A stretch of 64,000 nucleotides of DNA from a virus. The translations under genes and the position numbers were made by a program. Where the stretch lies: the IMG/VR virus record IMGVR_UViG_3300050821_024084, positions 1-64,000 of that record. One strand, given 5' to 3'. The notes beneath the pieces were generated by a model. That model saw nothing but the letters and a program-made list of their open reading frames with translations, was not told the origin of the DNA and made no database searches. How positions within the stretch are numbered: position 1 is the stretch's first letter; the number at the start of each line of letters is the position of its first letter. Below, in pieces: positions 41,369-59,390 of the stretch.

Positions 41369-41718
41369 CTGTCACAGCTCCCCGGGATGTCGTCGTCATG
41401 CAGCTCCGCGAGAATCTCCGCGAGCCTGGTCGTCCCCTCCGGGGTCCGGGGATCCGCCCGGACGGTCCGCCAGGTCACCTTCCCCAGACCCCGGGGCAGC
41501 TCCTGACCCGGCCGGAGCACCGTCACGACGGGCTTCTCCAGCATGATCGCCAGACCCAGCTCCACGCAGAACCTCACATCCGGGGTGGTCTCCGGCACCA
41601 TCAGCACCACGTACCGGGACGTGGTCATGGCAGGCAGCGTCTTCACCTGCACGTGGGAGACAATAGCCTCCCACTCCGCCCGCTCCTGCGGGGGCAGCTC
41701 GTCTATCCAGCTGGCCAC
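41365..41718 (-). CDS. TIR / nucleoside-deoxyribosyltransferase-like fold protein
   Basis: 117 residues from GTG 41718 (AAGGAGTCC upstream); first gene of the operon running to 38307. SRYVVLMVPETTPDVRFCVE, then LGLAIMLEKPVVTVLRPG, gives the Rossmann-like order with the glutamate (VELGLAIMLEKPVV) used catalytically in deoxyribosyltransferase and TIR families. Might bind or cleave nucleotides such as NAD; unproven. Confidence 0.65.
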   Translation of the reverse strand: MASWIDELPPQERAEWEAIVSHVQVKTLPAMTTSRYVVLMVPETTPDVRFCVELGLAIMLEKPVVTVLRPGQELPRGLGKVTWRTVRADPRTPEGTTRLAEILAELHDDDIPGSCDR

Positions 41719-41804
41719 CGGACTCCTTCCTGTTCCTGCGCGCCGGGCGCGCGCTTACCGCCAGCTTACCACCCGGGGCCGCATGCGGGGCGGTAAAAAT
41801 AAGG

Positions 41805-41834
41805 TTGCGCGGCAGGGGGCGCGGGGGGTATAGT
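41805..41834 (+). promoter_or_regulatory. promoter of the ncRNA/tRNA cluster
   Basis: TTGCGC (41805-41810) and TATAGT (41829-41834), 18-base spacer, followed by a 700-base stretch without genes but rich in stems. Confidence 0.65.
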
Positions 41835-41841
41835 CAGACCT

Positions 41842-41909
41842 GTGACCGCAGGGAAGTGCAGTTTCCTTCCGTGTGTCCCAACCGAAGAGAAGCGGCTCCC
41901 GGCGGTCAC
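41842..41909 (+). ncRNA. structured RNA element of unknown class
   Basis: GTGACCGC (41842-41849) pairs with GCGGTCAC (41902-41909); an inner GGAA...TTCC hairpin has a 7-base loop. It begins right at the predicted transcription start. It lacks the ATGCGCAG word of the Y-RNA-like molecules. Confidence 0.5.
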
Positions 41910-41946
41910 GTGAAACTTGAGAACTCAACTGACGCATCACATAAGC

Positions 41947-42098
41947 TCTCCTCCGATGCGCAGGCAGGCGGGTACTTCGGCAACGCACATGTCTCAGGAA
42001 CATGCAATTCCTGGTTCAAGCCCAGGTCGGCGCTCCGGCGTCGATAGCGTAATTTCCCCGCAAGGGGAGTCCCGCAGCCGCTCAGTTCACGGAGGAGA
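41947..42098 (+). ncRNA. Y RNA with permuted tRNA-like domain, copy A
   Basis: Terminal stem TCTCCTCCG/CGGAGGAGA (41947-41955 with 42090-42098), then ATGCGCAG, inner stem GCGGG/CCCGC. Inside: a CATGT hairpin with 7-base loop CTCAGGA, a T-arm CCTGG-TTCAAGC-CCAGG (42010-42026), and an acceptor-like stem TCGGCGC/GCGTCGA closed by the tetraloop TCCG, followed by TA and a TCCCC-GCAA-GGGGA hairpin in D-arm position. The tRNA halves are thus in reversed order, as in bacterial YrlA RNAs that bind Ro60 and mimic tRNA. A split Ro60 gene lies 3.2 kb downstream. Confidence 0.8.
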
Positions 42099-42099
42099 C

Positions 42100-42130
42100 C
42101 CCCGGATCCTCGCAAGGGGGTCCGGGGGAC
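42100..42130 (+). terminator. hairpin between Y RNAs
   Basis: CCCCCGGA and TCCGGGGG arms, no T-tract; likely a processing or spacer hairpin. Confidence 0.5.
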
Positions 42131-42133
42131 GAG

Positions 42134-42266
42134 CCTCTCCGATGCGCAGTCAGCGAGATACTTCACTGGTAATGAAAAGGTTACAGGTTCGAGTCCTGCC
42201 ATTCCTCTCGGGGAATGTAGCTCAAATGGAAGAGCATTTCTCGCAGACGATCAGTTCACGGAGAGG
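42134..42266 (+). ncRNA. Y RNA with permuted tRNA-like domain, copy B
   Basis: Terminal stem CCTCTCCG/CGGAGAGG, ATGCGCAG at 42142, inner stem GCGAGA/TCTCGC. Inside: hairpin TTCA-CTGGTAA-TGAA (anticodon-like, GGT), T-arm CAGG-TTCGAGT-CCTG (42184-42198), acceptor-like CATTCCT/GGGAATG closed by CTCG, then TA and a regular D-arm GCTC-AAATGGAA-GAGC. Every arm of a tRNA is present but the 3' half precedes the 5' half. Confidence 0.82.
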
Positions 42267-42275
42267 ACCTTACTG

Positions 42276-42328
42276 CGCGATCCCGTCCCGTCCATCACAA
42301 TGCGGGCACCTGTTTCAGCGGGATCGCG
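42276..42328 (+). ncRNA. stem-loop RNA between Y RNA B and C
   Basis: CGCGATCCCG (42276-42285) pairs perfectly with CGGGATCGCG (42319-42328). Large loop without coding potential. Class unknown. Confidence 0.55.
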
Positions 42329-42335
42329 TTTAACG

Positions 42336-42392
42336 TCCGGCGCGCAGCAGACGGGGTTTTTCTGAGGGGTTAGACCTCGCCTGCGCGCCGGA
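42336..42392 (+). ncRNA. stem-loop RNA, second of the pair
   Basis: TCCGGCGCGCAG (42336-42347) pairs perfectly over 12 bp with CTGCGCGCCGGA (42381-42392); the loop holds ggggtttttctgaggggtt. Could be a terminator-like spacer or an independent RNA. Confidence 0.55.
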
Positions 42393-42398
42393 TCACAC

Positions 42399-42483
42399 GT
42401 CAGCCAGATGCGCAGCATGCGGGTACTTCGAGTTGCGGAAAGCTCACCATCTGTCCCGCGTGCGACCCGGTACACTGGCTGAC
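42399..42483 (+). ncRNA. simple Y-RNA-like hairpin, copy C
   Basis: Terminal stem GTCAGCCAG/CTGGCTGAC, then ATGCGCAG exactly as in copies A and B, inner stem CATGCGGG/CCCGCGTG and the TACTTC word. The tRNA-like domain is absent. It ends four bases before the tRNA. Confidence 0.75.
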
Positions 42484-42487
42484 CCGG

Positions 42488-42563
42488 CGCGGGGTAGAGG
42501 AGTTCGGTCGTCCTCGTGGCGCTCATAACGCCGAGATCGCAGGTTCAAATCCTGCCCCCGCTA
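42488..42563 (+). tRNA. tRNA-Met (CAT), initiator-like
   Basis: Acceptor CGCGGGG/CCCCGCT with an unpaired first position (C1 and T72), the initiator hallmark; D-arm GAGG...CCTC; anticodon loop CTCATAA in a G/C-rich stem (TGGCG/CGCCG); T-arm GCAGG-TTCAAAT-CCTGC; discriminator A then CGA, so CCA is not encoded. The strict GGG/CCC of initiators is GCG/CGC here. Confidence 0.9.
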
Positions 42564-42566
42564 CGA

Positions 42567-42604
42567 GATCCTCCGCGTCTTCCCTCCGGGGGACGCGGGG
42601 GATC
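42567..42604 (+). terminator. hairpin after the tRNA
   Basis: GATCCTCCGCGTC pairs with GACGCGGGGGATC, followed by ttcc; closes or attenuates the RNA cluster before gene 42625. Confidence 0.6.
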
Positions 42605-42624
42605 TTCCACCCAGGAAGGATGTC

Positions 42625-42843
42625 ATGCCACCCAAGCGAAGCAAGAACACTGTCGCCAAGGCGACCCGTGCTGCCAGCTGGGCACGCGGCAAGGAGCGCA
42701 GCCAGCGGCGGATCTCGGAGCAGACTGCGGCCGCGCGACGCAATCGCGAGACCCGCGCAGCGGGCCTCGCCACCCCCTGGCAGCAGGCACGCGCCGTGCG
42801 TCGCGCGCGCCGGGCCGAGGAAAGGAACGCAGCGAATGACTAA
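42625..42843 (+). CDS. small highly basic protein
   Basis: 72 residues, CAGGAAGGA upstream. Lys/Arg/Ala-rich (MPPKRSKNTVAKATRAAS, ARRNRETRAAG); likely binds nucleic acid. Directly follows the RNA cluster, so an RNA-binding partner is conceivable. Overlaps the next gene by eight bases. Confidence 0.72.
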   Translation: MPPKRSKNTVAKATRAASWARGKERSQRRISEQTAAARRNRETRAAGLATPWQQARAVRRARRAEERNAAND

Positions 42844-43180
42844 GACGGATGCAGCGGCAGCAGCCCGGGAGATGCTCCGGATGCTGGACGACGGCCGGGG
42901 CTGGTGCAAGCAGACCTACTTCCGGCGCATCAAGGACCCGGATACCGGGCAGCTCGTGGGTCAGTACTGCCTGCAAGGGGCGCTGCATAGTCTGCTGGGC
43001 GTGCAGACCTGGGCAGCCGTGGACACGAGGAACGCGATTGTCAGTATCCTCGCGGAGCAGTACCCGGAGCGTCTCGACCCGCGATGGCTCACGATCCCCA
43101 GCTTCAACGATCACGAGGCCACCACCTGGGACGACGTGCGCGTCGTCCTGGAGAAGCTCGTCGCACGGGAGGACGCGTGA
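42836..43180 (+). CDS. DUF6197-like tandem paralogue 1
   Basis: 114 residues. Shares with the next four genes a layout: AREMLRMLDDGRGWCKQTY, a YCLQGAL block, ILAEQYPERL, PSFNDHEATTWDD and VRVVLEKLV. The W-C...C-L-x-G-A and FNDH positions match actinobacterial DUF6197-like proteins of unknown function. Confidence 0.78.
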   Translation: MTKTDAAAAAREMLRMLDDGRGWCKQTYFRRIKDPDTGQLVGQYCLQGALHSLLGVQTWAAVDTRNAIVSILAEQYPERLDPRWLTIPSFNDHEATTWDDVRVVLEKLVAREDA

Positions 43181-43527
43181 AGCGGAACCCGCACGTCGCG
43201 GAGGACATGCTCGCGTACCTGGGCGACCCCGGGCACTGGATCCAGGGCAGGTACGAGATGAGGGAGCAGCGCTGTCTGCTCGGAGAACACGGCGCAGCCG
43301 CCTACAGCAACGCGAATCACTGGGCCGGACGCACGCGGCGACCCGGGAATTCCCGGCTGCTCAGGCAGCTGGCGAGCATCATCCAGGAGCAGTACCCGGA
43401 ACGTCTTGAGTGCCTGCGCGGCATCGGTGAGGTCATCGCGGGGTTTAACGATCACCCGGAGACCCGGCATGCCGAGGTTGTTGCCGTGCTGGAGAAGCTC
43501 GTCGTCCGGGAACAGGAGGACGCGTGA
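43177..43527 (+). CDS. DUF6197-like tandem paralogue 2
   Basis: 116 residues from GTG 43177 (GTGA overlap). AEDMLAYLGDPGHWIQGRYE, RCLLGEHG, IIQEQYPERL, AGFNDHPETRHAEVVAVLEK. Family role unknown. Confidence 0.78.
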   Translation: MKRNPHVAEDMLAYLGDPGHWIQGRYEMREQRCLLGEHGAAAYSNANHWAGRTRRPGNSRLLRQLASIIQEQYPERLECLRGIGEVIAGFNDHPETRHAEVVAVLEKLVVREQEDA

Positions 43528-43889
43528 CTGAAACGAGGACGGAGCACGCTCAGATCGCCCGGGAGATGCTCGATCTGCTAGATGAGGGACGCAGCTGGCT
43601 CAAGGGCAGCGTATCCGATGCGAGCCGGCAGCGTCGCTGCGTGCTCGGCGCGTATCAGCGAGTGATCGAGCTGCGACGGGGGGTCTGGGGGGGTGACTGG
43701 TGGACACCGTTCGTGGCGGCGCTGGAGCAGACGGTACATGAGCAGTACCCGGAGCGCACGCGACGTGCCGCCTCCTTGTTCTGGGCGAACATGATTGATC
43801 CGGCAGCGATCAGCTGGTTCAATGACCATGAAGACACCACCTGGGATGATATCCGGGTGGTGCTGGAGAAAATGGCGGTGCAGGAATGA
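43524..43889 (+). CDS. DUF6197-like tandem paralogue 3
   Basis: 121 residues from GTG 43524. AREMLDLLDEGRSWLKGS, RCVLGAYQ, TVHEQYPER, SWFNDHEDTTWDDIRVVLEK. Carries a longer mid insertion (RRGVWGGDWWTPFVA). Confidence 0.78.
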   Translation: MTETRTEHAQIAREMLDLLDEGRSWLKGSVSDASRQRRCVLGAYQRVIELRRGVWGGDWWTPFVAALEQTVHEQYPERTRRAASLFWANMIDPAAISWFNDHEDTTWDDIRVVLEKMAVQE

Positions 43890-44257
43890 ACGAGACGGAA
43901 ACCGAGATCGCGGTGCTCCGGGAGATGCTCCGGTGGCTGCGCGATCCGGAGCACTGGGTCAAGAAATCGTACATGAGCCTGGGGCGCATGTGCCTGACGG
44001 CTGCTCACGGGTCGATCTGCTATCAGAATCCGTTCTACTGGATGACCTGGCGTGACGGGGAAGGACCCTCACTGTCGCTCCGGACGCTGGCGGACGTCAT
44101 CCGGGAGCAGTACCCGGAGCGGGCACCCGTGCGGCAGGGTCCGGGACTGCGGCCGGCAGGGGAGATCGTCCTGTTCAACGATCATCCGGACACCGTGCAC
44201 GCCGATATCATCAGCGTGCTGGAGAAGTCCATCGCGCGCCTGGAGGAAGCCGCATGA
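43886..44257 (+). CDS. DUF6197-like tandem paralogue 4
   Basis: 123 residues. LREMLRWLRDPEHWVKKSY, MCLTAAHG, VIREQYPERAP, VLFNDHPDTVHADIISVLEK. ATGA overlaps on both sides. Confidence 0.78.
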   Translation: MNETETEIAVLREMLRWLRDPEHWVKKSYMSLGRMCLTAAHGSICYQNPFYWMTWRDGEGPSLSLRTLADVIREQYPERAPVRQGPGLRPAGEIVLFNDHPDTVHADIISVLEKSIARLEEAA

Positions 44258-44610
44258 CCATCAAGGACGAGGCGGAGCAGATGCTCCGGGTACTGCCCGG
44301 TCCGGGACAGTGGATGCGCTGCGGATTCTCCTCCGGTTCGCGTCGGTGCCTGATAGGGGCGTATGCTCAGGCAACCGGGGACATTGCTATGGATCTGGTG
44401 TGGGGTCGCACTCCCTCGCGATGCGAGGAGATCCCGTATCTCCAGCTCCTGGCGGGCATCATCCGGGAGCAGTACGCCGAGCGCGTGGCGCTCTGCGAGG
44501 ACGTGACCAATACGATCATGGGGTTCAACGACAGCGCGTGCACCCGGTACGCGGATGTGCGCGTCGTGCTGGAAAAAGCGCTCGTGCGAGCGCAGGAACA
44601 GGAAGAGTGA
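44254..44610 (+). CDS. DUF6197-like tandem paralogue 5
   Basis: 118 residues. EQMLRVLPGPGQWMRCGF, RCLIGAYAQ, IIREQYAERV, MGFNDSACTRYADVRVVLEK; FNDH has become FNDS. Last of the array; overlaps the vWA gene by one base (TGATG). Confidence 0.78.
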   Translation: MTIKDEAEQMLRVLPGPGQWMRCGFSSGSRRCLIGAYAQATGDIAMDLVWGRTPSRCEEIPYLQLLAGIIREQYAERVALCEDVTNTIMGFNDSACTRYADVRVVLEKALVRAQEQEE

Positions 44611-45239
44611 TGACAGAACCAGGCTATGCGCACTACATCGGGCTGTTCGACCGGTCCGGATCCATGGACGGCATCCGGGAAGAAACCGAGAACGGCATCC
44701 GGGCGTTCTTCGATCAGCAGCGCGATCTTCCCGGCAAGGCGACGGTATCCGAATACCAGTTCGATTACGAGCCGGAGCTGATATGCAGCTTCGAGGACCT
44801 TCTCAATCTGCGACCCTACAAGCTCGCGCCGCGCGGCAGCACAGCGCTCCTGGACGCCATCGGCTACGTCCTGGATCATGAGGGACGCAAGCTGGAACTC
44901 CTGCCGGAAGAGATGCGACCCGAGCAGGTGTTCTTCCTCATCGCTACCGACGGGAAGAACAATTCCTCGCGCAACTTCGGGCTCACGGACATCCGGGCCA
45001 GGCTCCAGCATCAGCAGGACGTGTACAAGTGGGAAATCGTGTACATGGGCGCGAACGTGGACGCCTTCGAGGAGGGGAATGCCATGAGCATCCCGAGCAC
45101 CAGCACGCTCCAGTACGCGAACACCACGACAACGGAGGCATACAAGATGTCCGGCGGGGCGGTGCGACGCAGCCGGATCAGCGGACAGTCCGTCAGCTAC
45201 ACTCCGGAAGAACGCGAGCAGGCGAAGGGCGAGTCCTGA
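44610..45239 (+). CDS. von Willebrand factor A domain protein
   Basis: 209 residues from ATG 44610. MIDAS residues are seen as DRSGSM (about 12-17), a threonine in the LAPRGSTAL loop (about 70) and ATDGKNNSS (about 112). Metal-dependent protein binding is expected. It lies between the DUF6197-like array and Ro60, whose own C-terminal half also has a vWA domain, so they may interact. Confidence 0.85.
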   Translation: MTEPGYAHYIGLFDRSGSMDGIREETENGIRAFFDQQRDLPGKATVSEYQFDYEPELICSFEDLLNLRPYKLAPRGSTALLDAIGYVLDHEGRKLELLPEEMRPEQVFFLIATDGKNNSSRNFGLTDIRARLQHQQDVYKWEIVYMGANVDAFEEGNAMSIPSTSTLQYANTTTTEAYKMSGGAVRRSRISGQSVSYTPEEREQAKGES

Positions 45240-45346: not shown

Positions 45347-46228
45347 ATGAAACTGAATCAGCCAGGGACCCGCGCGGGACGCGGACCTCTGGCAACGGAA
45401 ACCGTCAGCTCAGTCAAGACGCACGAAGACGGCACCGGCTATCAGCGCGATGAGCGCTCGCAGCTGTTCCTGCTCGCCACCACGACGTTCGCAGGCGAGG
45501 GCAGCTTCTACGAGAGCGCTGCCGTCAGCGACGAGCGACTCAAGACCCTGACGCGCACGCTCGCGATCACGACGGACGGCTGGACGTGGCTCTGCGGATT
45601 CCTGCCGTGGCTGCGGAGCGACGGCAGCATCCGGACTGCATCGCTGATCTGCGCCGCCGAGGCGGTAGCGGCCCGGATCGCGGAACGGAAGCGTCTGCTT
45701 CGTGGGGAACCTGCGACCGGAAGCTACGAGATTCTCGACACGCAGGGTCCGCCCCTGACGCACCGGCAGCTGATCGCAGTCGTCTGCCAGCGCGCCGACG
45801 AGCCCTGCGAGATGCTGGCTTATGCGCTGGGGGTCTGGGGGCGCGCGCTGCCGCTGCCGGTCAAGCGAGGCATCGCTGATGCAGCGGTGCGGCTGTGGAA
45901 CGAGGCTGCCGCGCTGCGCTGGGACAAGCCGGGGAACGCGGTGCGCTTTGCCGACGTACTGGAGCTCTGTCACCCCCGGACCGGAGCAGACTGGCAGAAT
46001 GTCATGTTCCGGGATCTGATCACGGAACGCAAGGGCCGGGACGACTACGAGCCGGACCGGCTGCTCCGCAAGGTGCGAGCACGCTGGCTGCTCAACCAGC
46101 AGCAGCCCGCCGGACGACACGCCATCGCGCGGCACGCGCTGGACGGCGACATGCAGGACCGGAAGCTCATCGACGACGCGGCAGTCGGTCAATGGGAATG
46201 GACACGAAGCTGGCTGGGTGAAAGGTGA
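45347..46228 (+). CDS. Ro60 (TROVE) protein, N-terminal half
   Basis: 293 residues from ATG 45347 (AGAAGGGA upstream). ERSQLFLLATTTFAGEGSFY, DGWTWLCGFLPWLRSDGSIR and KVRARWLLNQQQPAGRHAIA are HEAT-like repeats of the TROVE ring that binds Y RNA and misfolded RNA. It ends at SWLGER. The frame is also open upstream to 45236 with protein-like residues (RPYVEWPRAVIDGRRIRRVED) but no standard start. The ring continues in the next gene, so both must act together, or one base is surplus. Confidence 0.85.
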   Translation: MKLNQPGTRAGRGPLATETVSSVKTHEDGTGYQRDERSQLFLLATTTFAGEGSFYESAAVSDERLKTLTRTLAITTDGWTWLCGFLPWLRSDGSIRTASLICAAEAVAARIAERKRLLRGEPATGSYEILDTQGPPLTHRQLIAVVCQRADEPCEMLAYALGVWGRALPLPVKRGIADAAVRLWNEAAALRWDKPGNAVRFADVLELCHPRTGADWQNVMFRDLITERKGRDDYEPDRLLRKVRARWLLNQQQPAGRHAIARHALDGDMQDRKLIDDAAVGQWEWTRSWLGER

Positions 46229-46229
46229 C

Positions 46230-47204
46230 ATGGAACCAGATCGCCCCCCGGAGCTGATTGAAGGGCCGGGGGTGCAGGGGGAGCCGAAGGAGCTGCGCTC
46301 TGCCCTGCGCCTGACTCCTGCCGAGCAATGGCAGCTCATGATCCCGCAGATGGGCTACATGGCGCTACTGAGACAGCTGCGCGCGTTCGACAAGGCCGGA
46401 ATCCCGGAATCCGTCGCGAACAAGGTCGCGCAGCGGATTGCCGATCCCGCGCAGGTCGCACGCTCGCGACAGCTGCCGTTCCGGTTCTACTCGGCGTACA
46501 TCAACGCGCCGTCGCTCCGCTGGGGGCAGGCACTGGAGCAGGCTCTCCAGGCGTGTCTCCCGAATGTCCCCGAGCTGCCCGGCCGGACGCTGATCCTGAT
46601 CGACACCTCCGGCTCGATGGAGAGCTTCCTCTCCGAGCGACCCGACTCCCGGCCCCGACGGGGGAAGGGCCGCCGGGGCGGCAGCCCGGACGAGCCGCCG
46701 CCCGTCCGGCCGATGCGCGTCCAGGCAGCCGCTCTGCTCGGGCTGGCGCTCGCGCTGAAGAACCCGGAAGCTGTAGATGTCTGGGGTTTCGCTGACGGGC
46801 AGTTCCGGGTCACGGGCATCGGGCCGGGTCAGTCCCTGCTCAAGGCGGTGGAGGCGTTCAGCCGGTGCACCGGCAACGTCGGGCATGGTACGCAGATCGC
46901 GCTGGCGGCCCGGATGTGCTACGGCGCGCACGACCGGGTGTGCATCTTCACGGACATGCAGACCTTCGGGCCGGGCGGAGGATTCGGCTTCTACAGCTCC
47001 TACGGCGTCGGGGATGTCAGCGCGGCGGTGCCTGCGCGGGTGCCGGTCTACGCCTTCAACCTGGCGGGCTACGAGGCGTCGGCTATGCCCGTCGGCGGGG
47101 GCAACCGTCACGAGCTGGGCGGTCTCTCGGACGCGACGTTCACAATGATCCCGGTTATCGAGGCCGGGCGCTCGGCGCGCTGGCCGTGGGAACAAGCAGC
47201 ATGA
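46230..47204 (+). CDS. Ro60 C-terminal half: end of TROVE ring plus vWA domain
   Basis: 324 residues from ATG 46230 (AAAGGTG upstream, one base after the previous stop). GYMALLRQLRAFDKAGIPES and RQLPFRFYSAYINAPSLRWG finish the TROVE ring; LILIDTSGSM begins the vWA domain with a second loop at VGHGTQIALAA and IFTDMQTF. In cellular Ro60 these parts form one chain. Deleting one A of GAAAGG would fuse them, so natural splitting and an error are both possible. Confidence 0.85.
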   Translation: MEPDRPPELIEGPGVQGEPKELRSALRLTPAEQWQLMIPQMGYMALLRQLRAFDKAGIPESVANKVAQRIADPAQVARSRQLPFRFYSAYINAPSLRWGQALEQALQACLPNVPELPGRTLILIDTSGSMESFLSERPDSRPRRGKGRRGGSPDEPPPVRPMRVQAAALLGLALALKNPEAVDVWGFADGQFRVTGIGPGQSLLKAVEAFSRCTGNVGHGTQIALAARMCYGAHDRVCIFTDMQTFGPGGGFGFYSSYGVGDVSAAVPARVPVYAFNLAGYEASAMPVGGGNRHELGGLSDATFTMIPVIEAGRSARWPWEQAA

Positions 47205-51627: not shown

Positions 51628-52536
51628 ATGCAACTAGGAATGCAGGTCAGCGAGCTGTGGGACGACTACGTCCGGTTTCACCGGCTCGCTCTGGAAACTC
51701 GTGACGTGGATCCCGTCTACCCGGTGCTCCGCCGGATATGTGACACCCAGGACTGGAGCACCGAGAAACGCGTTCAGGCGGTGCTCGCGCATGTCACGTA
51801 CTACGATCTCGGCTCCGCGCTGCTGGCGCTGGAGACCGGCGACTGGCGCAAGCGCCCGATGGGCACGGAGCGTCGCAATCTGTTCCCGGACGAGCAGCTG
51901 GGCAAGCACCTGATCTCGACAGAGAAGGAAGTCGTTTTCTACGGCGGATACGTGCGCTGGCTCGGGGACGATCTGTCCGGCACGGACCGTCAGGGCAACT
52001 GGCGCATCGTCACCGAGCGGCTGCTGCGCGTGCACGGCAACGGTCGATGGGCCGCGTACAAGACATGCGAGATGCTCGCGGAGATCGCGGATTTCCCGCT
52101 CGACGCCCCGGACATGGGGCATGCCTACTCCACCGGTCCCCGGCAGGGCCTGAATCTGCTGTATCCCGCTGCGCGTCTGGTACGCGGCATGCGCCCGGAC
52201 GCCATCAGCGCGCTGGACGCCTACAGTACCCGGCTGTGCGCCCGGCTGGAAGATGCGGGACTCCCGGCGCGCATCGCCCAGACCGAGACCACGCTCTGCG
52301 ACTTCCACGGTCTGGTAACAGGCCGGTACTACGTCGGGCATGACATTGATCTCATGCAGAAACAGCTCCTGAAGGCGGGGGAGGCCGGGGGGGATCTGGT
52401 GGAAGCAGCCTGGCGCGCACGGCTGGCGGTACTGCCGGCGAGCTACCTGGGGGAGGTAGGCCGTCGCTGGGAGGGACCGGACCGGCTGCGCAAGCTGGCG
52501 TACCGGCGCACGGGGGAGATCCTCACGCGTGACTGA
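51628..52536 (+). CDS. glycosylase-like helical protein, candidate amino-acid:DNA transferase (aGPT-PPlase type)
   Basis: 302 residues, leaderless start seven bases after TAAGCT. All-helical; RRICDTQDWSTEKRVQAVLA, HVTYYDLGSALLALETG, RLLRVHGNGRWAAYKTCEML resemble the HhH-glycosylase-derived thymine pyrophosphorylase/amino-acid transferase proteins predicted for phage base hypermodification. Neighbouring TET/JBP, DNA kinase and FAD oxidase genes fit that assignment. I am not certain of the subfamily. Confidence 0.6.
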   Translation: MQLGMQVSELWDDYVRFHRLALETRDVDPVYPVLRRICDTQDWSTEKRVQAVLAHVTYYDLGSALLALETGDWRKRPMGTERRNLFPDEQLGKHLISTEKEVVFYGGYVRWLGDDLSGTDRQGNWRIVTERLLRVHGNGRWAAYKTCEMLAEIADFPLDAPDMGHAYSTGPRQGLNLLYPAARLVRGMRPDAISALDAYSTRLCARLEDAGLPARIAQTETTLCDFHGLVTGRYYVGHDIDLMQKQLLKAGEAGGDLVEAAWRARLAVLPASYLGEVGRRWEGPDRLRKLAYRRTGEILTRD

Positions 52537-53404
52537 CGGCTGGACATACGGCGTCGAGCTGGAGTGGCCGGATGTTGACGTCCGGACGGAGCTGCCGGAC
52601 GAATGGGCGTGGTCAGCCACGGACTACACCGTGGTCAGTTCCGACGGCATAGCGAACGATCCTAAACGCGAGCTGATCCTGCACGGCGGGGAGCTGAACT
52701 CCCCGGTGTGCCGGTCGCCGGAAGAACTGAGCGAGCGCAGCCTGGAGCTGGCCGAGCTGCTCCGGCCGGGCCGGAACTACCGCTCCAATCTGCATATCCA
52801 CCTTGCGATGCCGGAGCTGGAGAACCTGGAGCTGCTCAAGCAAGCAGCGGATTTCACCTGGCGTGAGCTGCCGCGCACGCTGGAGGTCATGGATCCGCTG
52901 CGGATGCTGCTCAACGGCCTGACTGATACTGATGAGATTGCCGGAGCGGAGAAGCGGATGGCGCATTCTGCGCGGTCCCGGCACTACTTCACCAGCCGGA
53001 CGCGTCACCTGATGCGGATGCAGGCCCGGTCGCGAGAGGAATTCCTCCGGGCGGAAGTGCCGCTGCGCAAGCGCGACGGTGCGCCGCAGTGGCAGCTCGC
53101 CCCGCGCGAGGCGGTGAACTTCCGGTCGCTGCGCAAGCACGGGACCGTGGAGTTCCGGTTCTTTGCCGGGGATGACCGGGGCCACGGCGTGCGGGCAGCG
53201 GCGAGCTTCGCGCGGGACTGGATGCGCTGCGCCTGCGAGGACAATAAGGGCTTCGAGGTGCCGTACTGGGATGAGCTGCCGGTGCAGCTCCCGTTCGAGC
53301 TGCGGCTTGAGCGGGGCTGGGCCTGGACCAATCTCCAGCACAATTCGCGTGACACGGTTCGACAGCGCCTGGCTGATATGGGTAAGCTGGATGCATGTAC
53401 GTGA
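52529..53404 (+). CDS. amidoligase (COOH-NH2 ligase, ATP-grasp-like/GCS fold)
   Basis: 291 residues from GTG 52529. YGVELEWPDV at the start, ELILHGGELNSPVC, SNLHIHLAMPELE and AVNFRSLRKHGTVEFRFFAG are the core motifs of the amidoligase family, which forms amide bonds with amino acids. In the cassette it could join an amino acid or amine to a modified base; substrate is inferred from context. Confidence 0.83.
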   Translation: MTDGWTYGVELEWPDVDVRTELPDEWAWSATDYTVVSSDGIANDPKRELILHGGELNSPVCRSPEELSERSLELAELLRPGRNYRSNLHIHLAMPELENLELLKQAADFTWRELPRTLEVMDPLRMLLNGLTDTDEIAGAEKRMAHSARSRHYFTSRTRHLMRMQARSREEFLRAEVPLRKRDGAPQWQLAPREAVNFRSLRKHGTVEFRFFAGDDRGHGVRAAASFARDWMRCACEDNKGFEVPYWDELPVQLPFELRLERGWAWTNLQHNSRDTVRQRLADMGKLDACT

Positions 53405-53805
53405 TGGTCGTCTGCGCCGGGAATGTCGCTCGCAGTCCTGCGCTGGCCTGCCTGCTCCAGGCGTCCCGGGCGGATCTGCGAGTGGAATCAGCTGGCGTCG
53501 GCCGCAAGGCTGTTGCCGGCCTGCGGATGAAGAAGCCGATGCGCGGGCTGCTCACGCAGGCGGGCTACGCGGAATTCGCGCAGGCGCATCGCAGTCGGCT
53601 GATAGCCGATCTGCCAGAGCGCCCGGATCTGTGTATCGCGGTCGGTGTCCCGCAGATGCGACGCCTGGAAGAGCTGCTGCCGGACGTGCCCCGGCAGGCG
53701 TGCGATCCGCTGATTCCTGACCCGGCCTACGGAGATCAGGTCTCCTACGACCGGGCCTGGACGTGTATCCTGGAGAACGCCGCCCGGCTGGCGGTGGCCC
53801 TGTGA
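53395..53805 (+). CDS. low-molecular-weight protein-tyrosine-phosphatase-like enzyme
   Basis: 136 residues, leaderless start six bases after TAAGCT. Active-site loop VVCAGNVARSPAL (C-x5-R-S) at about 5-17 and the acid loop IPDPAYGDQ at about 106. Usual length of LMW-PTP/arsenate-reductase folds. In this cassette it might hydrolyse a phosphorylated base intermediate; not known. Confidence 0.85.
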   Translation: MYVMVVCAGNVARSPALACLLQASRADLRVESAGVGRKAVAGLRMKKPMRGLLTQAGYAEFAQAHRSRLIADLPERPDLCIAVGVPQMRRLEELLPDVPRQACDPLIPDPAYGDQVSYDRAWTCILENAARLAVAL

Positions 53806-54638
53806 AGCTTATCGTGGTGGGGGCAGGCATCGCCGGGTCGGCCCTGTGCCAGCTCGCTGAAGAGCGCGGGCACGACGTGACGCTGGTGTCGGACGGCGTG
53901 CCGGACAGCCTGGCGGCGACGGCGGTGCTGCGGCGCGGTTACCATGCGGGCAAGCCGGACCAGCTGGCGGCCCTGGACTACGCCCTGGACTGCTACCAGC
54001 GGTGGGGGGTGCCGGTGCGCCGGGGCGGGCTAGGGCAGAGCTACCGGCGGCTCGGGGATGAGCCGGTGGCAGATGAGGACTGGCTCCTGCTGGACCCCGC
54101 CGCTCCGCTGGCGGAACCCGACGTGCGCGCTGAGATCCTGACGGTGAAGAACGGGACGGCGTGGCTCGGGGCGGGCCGGTCGCTGGAAGGCGATGCTGTT
54201 GTTGTCGCAACCGGTGCCCGGGAGGGCAATCTCCAGGCGACAGGGAGCGTCACCTGGGGCGTCACCCTGGTGCACAGCCATCCGGAGGCGCTGCGCGACG
54301 AGCAGATCCGCATCTACCAGTGGGCCCCGTACCGGACGATCGTCGCCGGGGTAGTGAACGGGGAAGCCCGGGTGGGCTCGTCATCGGCCCGGAGCCCGGA
54401 TGCGGCCCGGAACCAGATGACCAAGATGCTGGAGAAAGCCTGGGGTCTGGGCTGGCTGACCACGCGAAAAAGCTGGGGCGAGGTGCTGGGCGCGCGACTG
54501 AAGACCGAGCAGCTGTCCTGGCGGGATCCTGAGGACGGGGCCTGGCGGCTGGCCGGGTTCCACCGGACCGGCTATGCGCTAGCTCCGGCTGCGGCACGTG
54601 ATCTGCTGAGCGAGATCGAGTTGACGGTCAGCGGGTAA
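53802..54638 (+). CDS. FAD-dependent oxidoreductase (DAO-type, DNA-modification associated)
   Basis: 278 residues from GTG 53802 (GTGA overlap). MKLIVVGAGIAGSALCQLAE is the Rossmann dinucleotide fold; DAVVVATGA at about 130; C-terminal RLAGFHRTGYALAPAAA closes the fold. Short members of this family accompany TET/JBP and kinase genes in phages and are thought to oxidise base-attached amino acids. Role here by context. Confidence 0.83.
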   Translation: MKLIVVGAGIAGSALCQLAEERGHDVTLVSDGVPDSLAATAVLRRGYHAGKPDQLAALDYALDCYQRWGVPVRRGGLGQSYRRLGDEPVADEDWLLLDPAAPLAEPDVRAEILTVKNGTAWLGAGRSLEGDAVVVATGAREGNLQATGSVTWGVTLVHSHPEALRDEQIRIYQWAPYRTIVAGVVNGEARVGSSSARSPDAARNQMTKMLEKAWGLGWLTTRKSWGEVLGARLKTEQLSWRDPEDGAWRLAGFHRTGYALAPAAARDLLSEIELTVSG

Positions 54639-54649
54639 TCTGCTAGTCT
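54621..54649 (+). promoter_or_regulatory. promoter with 17-base spacer, leaderless
   Basis: TTGACG (54621-54626) and TAGTCT (54644-54649); GTG 54657 follows seven bases later. The clearest leaderless promoter in the window. Confidence 0.8.
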
Positions 54650-54656
54650 CGGGTAT

Positions 54657-55244
54657 GTGTACCTGGTATACCTGACGGGAGCGCCTGCGACCGGGAAATC
54701 CTCGCTGATGGCCCGGCTGACGAACGGTCTCACGCGCGTGCCGCAGCTGGCAGACGGCGTGGTTCCGTACGAGGAGCTGCTGGCTCCTGACGGGCGGATG
54801 ACCGGTGTGGAGCTCGGCAAGCGCCGGGAGCGATTCTCCGGCACGGACGCGATGGCGTACAGCATCATGCCGAAGGTCTGCGCCTGGGTGGAGCGCTCCA
54901 TGCGCGAGCTGATGCTGGGCGAGGGCGATCGCCTGTCCAGCATGAAGTTCCTGACTGCTGCTGAGAAGGCGGGCTACGAGATACATCTCGTGCATCTGAG
55001 TGCCCGGCAGTCCGTGCTGGACGAGCGCTGCGAGGCACGAGGAAGCCGCCAGTCCCGGCACTGGCGCATCGGGCGCGTCACGATGGCTGTCCGCCTGGCG
55101 GCTCACGCAGAAGCTGCCGGGCACACGGTGCACACGCTGGATGCCGAGCGCCCGCTTGATGAGCTGGTGCGTGAGATGCGGGAGCAGATGCCGTTCCTGC
55201 TGGAACTGGGGAACGCCGATGATCCGGTTGCGACTCGCCACTAG
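54657..55244 (+). CDS. P-loop kinase, hydroxymethyl-pyrimidine DNA kinase type
   Basis: 195 residues from GTG 54657. Walker A YLTGAPATGKSSLMARL at 5-21, DGVVPYEEL, acidic RMTGVELGKRRE and a C-terminal HWRIGRVTMAVRLAAHAEAAG. Matches phage 5-hydroxymethyl-uracil DNA kinases that phosphorylate the oxidised base in DNA to allow substitution. Directly upstream of the TET/JBP gene, overlapping by 26 bases. Confidence 0.8.
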   Translation: MYLVYLTGAPATGKSSLMARLTNGLTRVPQLADGVVPYEELLAPDGRMTGVELGKRRERFSGTDAMAYSIMPKVCAWVERSMRELMLGEGDRLSSMKFLTAAEKAGYEIHLVHLSARQSVLDERCEARGSRQSRHWRIGRVTMAVRLAAHAEAAGHTVHTLDAERPLDELVREMREQMPFLLELGNADDPVATRH

Positions 55245-56529
55245 AGTAGCAGATCGCGTTATCAAGGAAAAGCTCGAAGGCTATACCCTAGGTGAGCAGG
55301 ACTATGACGTCCTGGTGCGCGGGAAGGCGCTCGTGCGGATGCCGGACGGACGTCCGCTGCTGTGCTATCTGCCGGGCGTCCTGAAAGAGACCCAGGAGCG
55401 CGAGGGCGTCTACGATATTCTGCATCCGCTGTACACGCACATGACCAACAACCGGGGCGCGGCCAGCGGGACGCGGAGGATCGTCCGGGGGTCCGGCGAG
55501 AAGACCGGCAAGCGCAGCGATGCGATGTCGGTGGCCTCGCCGTTCATCGGGGCGGCAGATCCCGGCGGGATCTACCGGTACTGCCGTCTGACAGAATGGA
55601 CTGGCAGTCATCTCCCGCAGTGGGAGGCACTGCATCCGTATCTCCGGGAGATCGCGCATCACTTCGAGCAGCAGATCCCGGATCGGCATGCCGTCCAGAT
55701 GGAGTACGTGCAGCGCACCGACCACGCCTGGGTCGTGCCGGGAACGCCGTTCACCACTATCACCGTCAACAACTCGTTCGCGACGGGCGTGCACAAGGAC
55801 GCCGGGGATCTGGAGACGGGGTTCTCCGCGCTGTCCTGCCTGCGTCAGGGCGACTACGAGGGCGGCGTCCTGGTGTTTCCCGCGTATCGCATCGGGGTAG
55901 ACATGCAGGACGGGGATCTGCTGCTGATGGACGCGCATCAGTGGCACGGCAACACCCGCATGATGTGCGGCTGCGGGGAGCCTATCCAGCGGCGGTTCTG
56001 CGAGACGTGCGGGGCTGAGCGGATCAGCGTGGTGTGCTATTACCGGACTAAGATAGCCGACTGCGGCACCCCGGAAGAGGAACTGGAACGCGCCGTGACG
56101 GACACGGAGCGCCGGTCAGGACTAGGAGACGAGCTTGATGAGCGGGACACGAACTCAGACCCTGCAAGTGGACTCCCGGGCGCTCCAGCGGTACGTGCAG
56201 GGGATGACCTACCAGCAGATAGCGGACGCGGAGCAGTGCTCCGAGCAGACAGCTCACATCCGGGTCCGCCGGGCGATCCGGAACCAGTACCGGCTGGAAG
56301 CCGACGAGCTCCGCGTCGTCGCGGACGAGCAGCTCAGCTTCCTGACCCGGCAGCTGACCGCGCTGATCCACAAGAAGTCCTACAAGATAGCGCCCAACGG
56401 GAAGATCGCCGTTCACCCGGAGACCGGGGAGCCGCTGGAGGACTACAGCGAGCAGCGGATGACCGCGCTGGCGCTGCTCAAGGTGGGCGAGTCCCGGCGC
56501 AAGCTGCTCGGACTCGACCAGCCAGTTAA
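55219..56529 (+). CDS. TET/JBP-family 2-oxoglutarate/Fe(II) dioxygenase (base hydroxylase)
   Basis: 436 residues from ATG 55219. TITVNNSFATGVHKDAGDLE carries the H-x-D iron motif; GGVLVFPAYRIGVDMQDGDL and LMDAHQWHGNTRM the distal His and 2-oxoglutarate region; a CGCGEP...CETCG zinc knuckle follows. It should hydroxylate thymine or 5-methylcytosine in DNA. The real end is probably near 56125: beyond that the frame only shadows the terminase gene and looks non-coding, suggesting a one-base shift just before 56130. Confidence 0.88.
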   Translation: MIRLRLATRVADRVIKEKLEGYTLGEQDYDVLVRGKALVRMPDGRPLLCYLPGVLKETQEREGVYDILHPLYTHMTNNRGAASGTRRIVRGSGEKTGKRSDAMSVASPFIGAADPGGIYRYCRLTEWTGSHLPQWEALHPYLREIAHHFEQQIPDRHAVQMEYVQRTDHAWVVPGTPFTTITVNNSFATGVHKDAGDLETGFSALSCLRQGDYEGGVLVFPAYRIGVDMQDGDLLLMDAHQWHGNTRMMCGCGEPIQRRFCETCGAERISVVCYYRTKIADCGTPEEELERAVTDTERRSGLGDELDERDTNSDPASGLPGAPAVRAGDDLPADSGRGAVLRADSSHPGPPGDPEPVPAGSRRAPRRRGRAAQLPDPAADRADPQEVLQDSAQREDRRSPGDRGAAGGLQRAADDRAGAAQGGRVPAQAARTRPAS

Positions 56530-56662
56530 GCACCGGGTGGAGATCACCGACAAGATGGACTCCGAGATCGAGCGCCTGGCGCAGGATCTCGCTGCGAACG
56601 GCGCAGGCGAGCCGGTGCTGCCGGAGCTACCTGCCGGGGTGACGTCCGGTGACGGAGACTGA
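56138..56662 (+). CDS. terminase small subunit
   Basis: 174 residues from ATG 56138. RALQRYVQGMTYQQIADAEQ, CSEQTAHIRVRRAIRN is the DNA-recognising helix-turn-helix; the middle is a helical oligomerisation region (DEQLSFLTRQLTALIHKKS); C-terminus Gly/Pro-rich. Immediately precedes and overlaps the large subunit. Confidence 0.83.
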   Translation: MSGTRTQTLQVDSRALQRYVQGMTYQQIADAEQCSEQTAHIRVRRAIRNQYRLEADELRVVADEQLSFLTRQLTALIHKKSYKIAPNGKIAVHPETGEPLEDYSEQRMTALALLKVGESRRKLLGLDQPVKHRVEITDKMDSEIERLAQDLAANGAGEPVLPELPAGVTSGDGD

Positions 56663-59390
56663 CGAGCCTCCGGAGCTCCCCCCTAACTGGCGGGATCTCG
56701 GTCCTGATGCCAAGCGCGTGCTGCTGCACAAGCTGCGCGGCATGGCGGTCAGCAAAGGACTGGGCGGACCTCGTGAGTGGCGGTCGAAAGCGCGGCCCAA
56801 GCAGCTGCCCCCGAGTGACCCAGCACATCATCTGCCGGACGGTAACGGGTTCAGATGCGGATGTTCCGGTCCTGATGAGAACTGGAATATCTGGATGTTC
56901 ATGGCCGGCCGGGGGTGTGTTGCCGGGCATACGCGCATCTGGCTACCGCTGGAGAACCGGTTCGAGCGGATCGATACGCTAGTCCGTCAGGGAGAGGCCG
57001 TCATTGTCCTCTCCCTGACGGAGAATGGCGCAGAACCACGTCAGACTGACGGGGCTCCTTTCATCGGGGGCGTGGCAGAGCTGTATGATGTGCTGACTTC
57101 GGACGGCAACCGCATCACGGTGACTGACCGGCATCGTTTCCTGACTCCGCAAGGATGGCTGCCACTCGCTCGCGTGCACGTCGGACAGCTTCTTGCCGGA
57201 GGCGCTCCCGCTCCTCCGCAGGAAGCTTCTTCACACCGGTCAGGGTGGCGTGAAGATGCTCGGAATTGGCGGGGAACACGCGAAGATTCTCCGGACGATT
57301 ATCCGAGGTATCCCCGTTCACATGATCAACTACCTCGTCAGGGGACAGGCAGCGTCCTAGCACCTGCTCCATCACGAGTCGATGCTGCCGGACATACCCG
57401 AGATTATTCATGTGAGGATGATTTCTCATCTTCACGAGAATGTAACCGTCCTCGTCGACTGCATAGCCTCCCTTCCAGAAGTAGTTATGCTCGGGACGCG
57501 CTTTCGCCTCTAGACACGGAAGTCCGAGTTCTATCAGGCGTGAGCGAACTGTCTCTGCGTTACAGCCGAGGATGGCTGCCATTTCCGTGCATGTCATCTG
57601 CTGGGCATGCAAGTCGCGGAGCTTATCAGTGTCTACAGGCATGCGACTGCCCTGAGACATGCGCTTGCGCGACAGGTCAGAAGCCCTATGCCCTCGCAGC
57701 TGCACCCCGGCACGTTGCAGAGCGCGTCCTACGGTCTGATAACTTGTTCCGGTTGTCTGAGCAAGGTCTTTCAGCGGCTCTCCTTCCTGATAGCGCCGGA
57801 TCAGGTCCGGAAGAAGATCTGACGGTATCTTGGAGTACTCTCGGCTCGGCATGTGAGCATGGTATCACGTGGACGAGAGTACGGTCGGTCCGGTCTGCGG
57901 GAACAGGATGGTTTTATGACCTGACTGTCCCTGGTGCAGAGAATTATGCGGCGGAAGGTCTCTGGCATCACAATTGCGGAAAAACCTGGTCGGGCGCTAA
58001 CTGGATAATTGAACAGGCGCTCCGGAACCCGGGAACGATGTGGGCGGTCGTTGCCCCGACATTCCGGGATGTCCGGGTCACGTGCTTCGAAGGCCCCTCC
58101 GGGATTCGACGTCTTCTTCAGCCTGGTGAGGAAGATCAATGGCGCAGGAATGAGCTGCGCCTGGATCTGGTGAATGGCTCCGTTATTTACGGGTATTCGG
58201 CTGACCAGCCGGAACGATTGCGCGGATCTAACCTTTCCGGGGCGTGGGTAGATGAAATGGGGAGTTTTGCGTATGAGGAAACCTGGTATGAGGGACTAGT
58301 CCCTGCGCTACGTATCGGGGAACATCCCCGTGTCATGGTCACCACGACTCCGCGCCCGACGAAGCTCATCCGGGATCTGTACTCGCGTCGCGACGGCACC
58401 GTTCACACCACCACGGCCTCCACCTGGGAGAATGCGGCCAACCTGTCGGCTGCCGCCCTCGATGAGCTCAAGCGCCGGTACGAAGGCACCCGGCTGGGCC
58501 GTCAGGAGCTTGAAGGCGTCCTCCTGGAGGATCTGGAAGGCGCGCTGTGGCGGCGCAGCGATATCGACGCTGCGCGAGTCAGGCCGGAGGACGTGCCAGA
58601 TCTGGCCCGCGTGGTGGTGGCGATCGACCCGGCGATGAGCGCCGACGAGGATGCTGACGAGACGGGCATCATCGTGTCCGGGGAAGACGGGCGCGGCCAC
58701 GGGTACGTCCTGGCGGACTGGTCGATGCAGGGCACGCCCGAGGCATGCATGCGGCGGGCTGTCCAGGCGTACAAGCACTACAACGCGGACTGCGTCGTGG
58801 CTGAGGTCAACAACGGCGGTGACTTTATCGGCACGGTGCTGCGCACCGTCGATCCGAATCTGCCCTACCATCAGGTGCGGGCCTCGCGCGGGAAGGCGAT
58901 CCGGGCAGAGCCTGTGTCGTCACTGGCGGAGCAGCACCGGCTGCATCACGTGGGGAACTTCCCGGAGCTGGAAGATCAGCTCTGCTCATTCGTCCCGGGA
59001 ATCGCCGGGCCGTCCCCGGACCGGCTTGACGCGCTGGTCTGGTCAGTATTCGAGCTGAAGAGCTTGTCGCAGTCCAGCTGGCTCTCCGCGTACGGAGCCA
59101 TCCGCTGCACGCAATGCGAGATGGCGTTCCGGGGCTCGGCGACGTGCCCGCGCTGCGGAGCAGATGCACCTGCATCGCCTGACGGGGGAAGCTTCTCCCC
59201 GGAGGGGGCGGGGGAGGATCGCAGCATGGGCGGCTGGGCCTCGGTGTACCGGCTGGCCAGGTGCAGCAAGGGACACGTGTACTCTGAGCGGTCCGGTGGC
59301 TGCCCGCAGTGCCGGTCCGGCGGCCTGGACTGGCTGCGCGCGCACGGCAAGCCCGGTGGACAGGCAGGTTCCGGGGCGGTAAGCTCGTAG
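56649..59390 (+). CDS. terminase large subunit interrupted by an intein
   Basis: 913 residues as encoded from GTG 56649; 560 after removal of the 353-residue intein. Exteins join as MFMAGRG + CGKTWSGAN, i.e. exactly inside Walker A. Walker B SNLSGAWVDEMGS and motif III VMVTTTPRPTK follow; nuclease acids appear in VVVAIDPAMSADEDADETGI, DCVVAEVNNGGDF and PDRLDALVWSVF. The C-terminus has two zinc ribbons (CTQCEMAF...CPRCGAD; CSKGH...CPQCRSG). It cuts and pumps DNA into the capsid. Confidence 0.95.
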   Translation: MTETDEPPELPPNWRDLGPDAKRVLLHKLRGMAVSKGLGGPREWRSKARPKQLPPSDPAHHLPDGNGFRCGCSGPDENWNIWMFMAGRGCVAGHTRIWLPLENRFERIDTLVRQGEAVIVLSLTENGAEPRQTDGAPFIGGVAELYDVLTSDGNRITVTDRHRFLTPQGWLPLARVHVGQLLAGGAPAPPQEASSHRSGWREDARNWRGTREDSPDDYPRYPRSHDQLPRQGTGSVLAPAPSRVDAAGHTRDYSCEDDFSSSRECNRPRRLHSLPSRSSYARDALSPLDTEVRVLSGVSELSLRYSRGWLPFPCMSSAGHASRGAYQCLQACDCPETCACATGQKPYALAAAPRHVAERVLRSDNLFRLSEQGLSAALLPDSAGSGPEEDLTVSWSTLGSACEHGITWTRVRSVRSAGTGWFYDLTVPGAENYAAEGLWHHNCGKTWSGANWIIEQALRNPGTMWAVVAPTFRDVRVTCFEGPSGIRRLLQPGEEDQWRRNELRLDLVNGSVIYGYSADQPERLRGSNLSGAWVDEMGSFAYEETWYEGLVPALRIGEHPRVMVTTTPRPTKLIRDLYSRRDGTVHTTTASTWENAANLSAAALDELKRRYEGTRLGRQELEGVLLEDLEGALWRRSDIDAARVRPEDVPDLARVVVAIDPAMSADEDADETGIIVSGEDGRGHGYVLADWSMQGTPEACMRRAVQAYKHYNADCVVAEVNNGGDFIGTVLRTVDPNLPYHQVRASRGKAIRAEPVSSLAEQHRLHHVGNFPELEDQLCSFVPGIAGPSPDRLDALVWSVFELKSLSQSSWLSAYGAIRCTQCEMAFRGSATCPRCGADAPASPDGGSFSPEGAGEDRSMGGWASVYRLARCSKGHVYSERSGGCPQCRSGGLDWLRAHGKPGGQAGSGAVSS
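56916..57974 (+). mobile_element. TerL intein with antisense endonuclease gene
   Basis: 353 codons. Block A begins with Cys1 (CVAGHTRIWLPLENRF); block B is GNRITVTDRHRFLTPQGW; block F is TGWFYDLTVPGAENYAAEG; block G ends WHHN followed by Cys+1. Between roughly codons 105 and 300 the sense frame has no known motif and low-complexity composition; on the other strand the same bases encode an HNH endonuclease (57115..57852). Confidence 0.92.
57115..57852 (-). CDS. HNH homing endonuclease encoded antisense within the intein
   Basis: 245 residues from ATG 57852, six bases after the leftward -10-like TACCAT. Two DNA-binding helix-turn-helix units (EGEPLKDLAQTTGTSYQTVG and CTEMAAILGCNAETVRSRL) precede a classic HNH_3 nuclease: HRLVMEQVLGRCLSPDEVVD, HVNGDTSDNRPENLRVF, NSEHLHATL. 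Complete and apparently intact. It would cut intein-less terminase genes. Encoding on the strand opposite to the host intein is highly unusual. Confidence 0.92.
   Translation of the reverse strand: MPSREYSKIPSDLLPDLIRRYQEGEPLKDLAQTTGTSYQTVGRALQRAGVQLRGHRASDLSRKRMSQGSRMPVDTDKLRDLHAQQMTCTEMAAILGCNAETVRSRLIELGLPCLEAKARPEHNYFWKGGYAVDEDGYILVKMRNHPHMNNLGYVRQHRLVMEQVLGRCLSPDEVVDHVNGDTSDNRPENLRVFPANSEHLHATLTGVKKLPAEERERLRQEAVRRARERVAAILAESGNDAGQSP

Follow-up and report, generated by a model that had tools for sequence, protein, structure and literature searches.

Y RNAs encoded beside a Ro60 gene are an already known kind of phage RNA, and such RNAs were reportedly described in phages in 2014. Here we analysed a cluster of three putative Y RNAs and the Ro60 gene near it in the first 64 kb (the window) of a 101-kb virus record, IMGVR_UViG_3300050821_024084, with a G+C content of 65%. 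The closest described RNA is YrlA, which mimics the D, T and acceptor arms of a tRNA and is reported to carry the tRNA-type modifications dihydrouridine (D) and pseudouridine; in the known particle, Rsr is held by the basal stem of YrlA, and PNPase is bound by the tRNA-like domain and steered to structured RNA (PMC8394870). It has also been proposed that YrlA competitively inhibits an anticodon nuclease that leaves YrlA uncut (PMC7790460), and a survey of jumbo phages ties phage TROVE proteins to a tRNA-like partner and RNA repair (PMC7824862). A second described system is the circularly permuted tRNA gene, whose product is circularised and then cut into a standard tRNA (PMC10085705, citing Soma 2014). 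One RNA of the present cluster, copy A, appears from its sequence to be a complete tRNA, anticodon arm included, that has been opened in the D-loop and rebuilt on a Y RNA stem.

The cluster lies in a stretch with no probable gene between a minus-strand gene that ends at about 41718 and plus-strand genes that begin at about 42620, as judged from open reading frames (ORFs) ranked by codon-position G+C. Copies A (41948-42097), B (42134-42266) and C (42399-42483), all on the plus strand, share a closing stem followed by ATGCGCAG, an inner stem and TACTTC. The pattern ATGCGCAG-N{6,14}-TACTTC has three exact matches in the 64 kb, all of them in the cluster, against an expectation of 0.00 (none in 100 shuffles). 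The closing stems differ in sequence and are nevertheless paired in each copy (CTCCTCCG/CGGAGGAG, CCTCTCCG/CGGAGAGG and GTCAGCCAG/CTGGCTGAC). Copy C has a Y stem without a tRNA module (fold z -2.74). Both the shared design and the kept pairing had been noted in the initial annotation of this DNA, and its description of the region as a phage Y RNA cluster is supported by the shared motif, a sub-threshold YrlA match of B, the nearby Ro60 gene and the same modules beside Ro60 elsewhere. The tRNA that it placed after the Y RNAs is a plus-strand tRNA-Met gene with a CAT anticodon (42488-42564), the sole tRNA detected by the Rfam tRNA model in the whole 101-kb record. Its possible initiator-like character, proposed in that annotation, is suggested by the CAT anticodon and by positions 1 and 72, which read by eye as unpaired. 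The start given there for the cluster, 41842, has to be moved, because the hairpin at 41842-41909 (z -4.64) stands apart and lacks the Y motif. Two other strong hairpins without the motif lie at 42277-42327 (z -3.72) and 42339-42389 (z -5.46).

Copy A keeps the acceptor, D, anticodon, variable and T regions of a tRNA in circularly permuted order, with the Y stem entering through the D-loop. Its Y motif (41956-41978) consists of ATGCGCAG, the inner stem strand GCGGG (41968-41972), which pairs with CCCGC at 42071-42075, and TACTTC. Then follow GGCA, the 3' half of the D-loop, and ACGC, the 3' strand of a 4-bp D stem (41979-41986; D-stem pair probability 0.75-0.81), a single A at position 26, the anticodon arm CATGT-CTCAGGA-ACATG with a 5-bp stem and a 7-base loop (41988-42004), the 5-base variable loop CAATT, the T arm CCTGG-TTCAAGC-CCAGG (42010-42026) and the acceptor stem TCGGCGC-TCCG-GCGTCGA, closed by the 4-base loop TCCG (42027-42044; seven of seven pairs, one of them G-T, pair probability 0.89-1.0). 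The remaining parts, at 42045-42055, are TA for positions 8-9, then GCGT (42047-42050) as the 5' strand of the D stem and AATTT as the 5' half of the D-loop.

The predicted fold of copy A has an energy of -66 kcal/mol (z -3.76), which none of 200 shuffles equalled, and the unforced minimum-energy structure already contains the D, anticodon, T and acceptor helices. When the parts were restored to tRNA order, ARAGORN called a 73-nt tRNA-Leu(cag), where the Leu label derives from the anticodon alone, and a control with a shuffled middle was not called. The Rfam tRNA model gave a partial, sub-threshold match to copy A as it stands (20.2 bits).

The cluster resembles YrlA in having a Y stem with an internal loop, a T arm, a looped acceptor, RNA ends in the Y stem and a Ro60 gene nearby. 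Copy B also agrees with YrlA in the order of parts (T arm, looped acceptor, D arm, and the Y stem in the anticodon position), has an intact D arm at 42220-42235 (GCTC-AAATGGAA-GAGC), and is by design an ordinary YrlA-type Y RNA, with the Y stem in place of the anticodon arm. The order in copy A is another one: the D arm is not closed, the D stem spans the entry of the Y stem, and an anticodon arm is present where YrlA has its Y stem. Copy A keeps this arm because the Y stem enters through the D-loop and not, as in B, through the anticodon stem, a distinction absent from the initial annotation. The initial annotation had assigned a full set of permuted tRNA arms, including a hairpin with a 7-base loop in the anticodon position, to both copies. 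The permuted parts were found in both, as were the acceptor loops TCCG and CTCG, but the anticodon arm is supported in A only (loop CTCAGGA). The candidate arm in B (GTAAT..GTTAC, 42169-42184) is unconvincing, since base 42184 would also belong to the T stem, with which the hairpin competes (pair probability of the T stem 0.23-0.26), besides which the D arm is intact and the layout is that of YrlA. The fold of B is not clearly above shuffles (z -1.11, for a range that lacks the last three bases at the 3' end).

Related layouts were found in other viruses. A pattern derived from copy A (TACTTC followed by GG and, further on, a T loop) retrieved 34 stretches from viral contigs, and two wider pattern scans added loci that are a sample among the matches listed, shaped by the patterns used; apart from a set selected by the Ro60 protein, most samples were gathered by patterns that hold part of the features sought. 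Inspection distinguished closed forms, as in copy A, from open forms, in which a tRNA with its own acceptor ends, some with CCA, carries the Y stem within its D-loop. Beyond the window there are two further closed D-loop forms and at least 19 open ones; an unusually long open candidate in locus L311 was unconvincing. In the control set (304 records, 2.76 Mb), we classified 493 unique cores of TACTTC plus T arm and compared them with 20 flank shuffles. The open D-loop layout was counted 16 times versus 0.0 in the shuffles, and the closed D-loop layout four times versus 0.05; one of the four (L079:291) is doubtful, with a second TACTTC beside the T arm and no GG. Layouts with a D arm numbered 44 versus 5.8 (open, raw) and 208 versus 20 (closed), which makes the open anticodon-entry class noisier than the D-loop one. 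The list of 29 open anticodon-entry elements counts one element in L129 twice and includes a chance match in L016. The latter (L016:5505-5551) is a tRNA with a long, plain TTCG-loop hairpin in its anticodon loop, on a viral contig without a TROVE match.

For a test whose cores were not chosen by the features examined, we took the 50 cores with a fully Watson-Crick open acceptor, of which 27 had a closed D arm and 23 had none. Among the 23, a 5-bp stem with a 7-base loop was located at a variable-region length of 5 in 13 cores and of 4 in six, and never at 2, 3, 6 or 7. The anticodon geometry was hence present in 19 of 23, compared with means of 1.2 (length 5) and 0.6 (length 4) after partner swapping. 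A D stem at the canonical place was found in 13 of the 19 (swapped mean 4.1, maximum 9 in 1000), T33 in 13 and a purine at position 37 in 18, and ARAGORN called 15 of 25 restored bodies as tRNA versus 3 of 25 controls. A chance origin of the D-loop class is unlikely, and the fold of copy A is supported computationally by its sequence, the controls and the relatives.

These comparisons also bear on whether copy A might be an ordinary YrlA with a worn D arm (GCG/CGC in TAGCGTAATTTCCCCGC), its anticodon-like hairpin being a long variable arm of the class II type. Most actinophage relatives are indeed YrlA-type, and L003:6572 reads as a YrlA-type RNA with an additional hairpin ahead of the T arm. 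Yet the D-loop so defined has no GG, while GGCA sits on the opposite side, precisely where the 3' half of a D-loop is expected; ACGC pairs with GCGT in the unforced fold; and the corresponding hairpin in the 23 open relatives has the narrow anticodon geometry just described. We consider a worn YrlA improbable.

The tRNA-like character of the restored bodies, including the ARAGORN calls and the frequencies of T33 and purine 37, would also fit a circularly permuted tRNA gene in copy A and D-loop-intron tRNA genes in the open forms, with a plain tRNA arising by cutting and ligation and the Y part being removed. Permuted tRNA genes do exist, as cited above, and some relatives have RNA ligase genes close to their clusters. 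As in such genes, the 3' part of the tRNA in copy A precedes the 5' part and the tRNA ends are joined by a short loop, but here the joining region consists of a Y RNA stem that bears Ro60-linked motifs. In the haloarchaeal virus HGTV-1 (NC_021328, L306:853-981), a gene annotated as 'tRNA Asp (gtc) + Intron' has an interruption that resembles a Y RNA stem and includes TACTTC as well as a Y-like inner stem. The TROVE gene of that virus is about 3 kb away. Like intron-containing tRNA genes of this kind, the open forms are tRNAs broken within one arm; they differ in that the insert contains TACTTC along with the Y inner stem and, in the D-loop forms, is located in the D-loop and not next to the anticodon. 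The part to be removed would be a Ro60-linked Y RNA with a conserved motif, which in copy A is common to B and C, neither of which has a restorable anticodon. T33 is absent in six of 19. A tRNA-Leu with a CAG anticodon is expected to have a long variable arm, whereas restored copy A has a variable loop of five bases. Removal of the Y part to give a plain tRNA therefore seems to us very unlikely.

The association with Ro60 extends to the relatives. Among records found through the RNA pattern only, a TROVE domain was encoded by 12 of 16 records judged Y-like versus 2 of 18 others. These two were L029, which contains a stretch also present in the Y-like L023, and L026, which likely holds a true form. 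Loci with D-loop forms numbered 19 (16 with open forms, besides the window, L046 and L148); 12 of them had a clear TROVE gene and two a match below the cut-off. In crAss001, whose TROVE status rests on tblastn and annotation, the 900-base gap after the Ro60 gene (Gp96) holds two unannotated open forms, one with the Y stem in the D-loop and the other with it in the anticodon loop (near 6083-6228 and 6339-6487 of locus L069, taken together); its Ro60 gene is reported to be transcribed within 0-10 minutes of infection (PMC8375218). An open anticodon-loop form is also present in the crAss-like phage cr106_1. Closed YrlA-type modules of the same kind lie beside Ro60 in phages of Streptomyces, Gordonia and Arthrobacter for which a Ro-like RNA binding protein is annotated. 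In 63 loci selected by the Ro60 protein, including a Catenulispora metagenome-assembled genome that was the one relative recovered by a Ro60 search of genome contigs, we counted 66 closed YrlA-type modules in 40 loci, with six further closed modules unassignable and 21 loci without a module; several of the 63 loci are truncated. Annotated tRNA-Pro, tRNA-Ser and tRNA-Arg genes in named phages (L013:8989-9079, L009:8946-9019 and L012:8864-8935) coincide in part with YrlA-type modules and could be Y RNAs under a wrong name.

In the window, a TROVE domain is encoded by the plus-strand ORF at 46218-47204, about 3 kb downstream of the Y RNA cluster, and full-length phage Ro-like proteins align across this and the preceding ORF. 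The N half of the gene (45347-46228) was recognised by tblastn of eight phage Ro-like proteins and by alignment, with no Pfam match of its own; the C half (46230-47204) holds the end of the TROVE domain and a vWA part (Pfam TROVE 50.6 bits, cut-off 23; alignment).

Several results speak against the proposed tRNA graft and its tie to Ro60. Five of the 19 loci with D-loop forms, some of them fragments, had no TROVE match, and no closed D-loop form was found in the 63 Ro60-selected loci. A cap hairpin of at least four pairs on the Y stem of the open forms was not enriched (7 of 29 versus 11.5 and 5 of 19 versus 7.6 in shuffles), while several open forms read by eye as ending the Y stem in 3-4 pairs and a 4-base loop. 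The YrlA covariance-model search that the initial annotation had named as a check left copy A unmatched up to an E value of 10 and gave 34.7 bits for copy B (E = 1.3e-5, 42175-42243, covering T arm, looped acceptor and D arm), below the curated cut-off of 69. Such a low score is typical of the phage group, because the relatives beside phage Ro60 score only 28-38 bits (four of five loci). Compensatory changes in homologous phages, which the initial annotation had also looked to, are seen at the level of the class but not for copy A, which has no close homologue among the sequences searched and, as the only closed D-loop form seen among actinophage-type loci, offers no covariation of its own. 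Finally, the Ro60 gene is broken at AGG TGA C ATG, with the TGA at 46226-46228 and the second ORF starting from the ATG at 46230, and is a single ORF in 11 of 11 aligned relatives; the gene may have undergone true fission, may contain a programmed frameshift site (AGG TGA C) or may have been misassembled.

The interrupted Ro60 gene and the lack of a close homologue of copy A are what one would see if the cluster were decaying into pseudo-tRNA and Y RNA relics. On the other side, the stems of A, B and C have diverged but remain paired, the fold of A lies well outside its shuffles, and both Ro60 halves are open and alignable, with a start codon immediately after the stop. Decay is in our estimation highly improbable.

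A promoter scan of 41700-42700 gave no promoter and one terminator-like site on the minus strand. A comparison of 30000-54000 with a phage collection yielded no close relative; the single match, of 83 bases at 83% identity, fell on the tRNA. Between the RNA cluster and Ro60 (42620-44610), four ORFs in tandem match DUF6197, one of them just under the cut-off, and the ORF directly upstream of Ro60 (44610-45239) has no Pfam match and contains DRSGSMD, which by eye is similar to a vWA metal site. Likely DNA-modification genes are found at 51628-56529 (an amino acid:DNA transferase, a P-loop nucleotide kinase and a TET/JBP-like oxygenase), and the ORF for the terminase large subunit (56649-59390) matches an intein splicing domain.

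Taking these data together, we consider it probable that the cluster supplies the RNA component of a Ro60 ribonucleoprotein of the phage and that copy A is a complete tRNA body with a Y stem grafted in its D-loop. The closing stem and the ATGCGCAG/TACTTC internal loop would most likely bind the phage Ro60, to judge from the shared design and the linkage, and we likewise infer that the Y RNAs are transcribed. Copy B would carry the usual YrlA tRNA mimic. In copy A, the Y stem would have been grafted into the D-loop rather than the anticodon loop, the tRNA ends being sealed by the TCCG loop and the RNA ends relocated to the Y stem. The most likely role of the Y stem would be to tether the RNA to Ro60, while the tRNA body would present a tRNA surface to proteins that handle tRNAs. 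These could be PNPase, which is the partner in the known particle, or else modification enzymes or anticodon nucleases of the host. Because its anticodon loop is kept, copy A could bait such nucleases; this bait role, taken by itself, is rather unlikely. The anticodon arm would add a surface absent from YrlA, which may recruit, bait or regulate.

As far as the searchable papers show, copy A and the open Y-tRNAs are an undescribed variant of the phage Y RNAs. The literature searched contained no D-loop-grafted or open Y-tRNA; two main YrlA papers (RNA 2014, Structure 2018) were beyond the reach of this search, and an earlier description is possible. More broadly, the Y stem may be a graft module that bacterial viruses and at least one archaeal virus have put into the D-loop or anticodon loop of real tRNAs, thereby tethering whole tRNA bodies to their own Ro60, a proposal for which we see about even support. 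Part of it, and held with the same evenly divided confidence, is that there are four layouts, given by two graft points and by whether the tRNA ends or the Y ends are free, YrlA and copy A each being one. In that case, YrlA may have arisen from an open Y-tRNA through circular permutation.

If the Y stem is such a module, some of the tRNA bodies that phages tether in this way have anticodon loops that look usable. A mimic of the full tRNA body, together with open forms whose tRNA ends are free, would change the set of possible recognisers, which may include synthetases, the CCA-adding enzyme, RNase P and anticodon nucleases, and they suggest a route by which YrlA could arise from a tRNA. Since crAss001 is a cultured gut phage with both open forms beside its Ro60 gene, the idea is testable in a laboratory phage-host pair.
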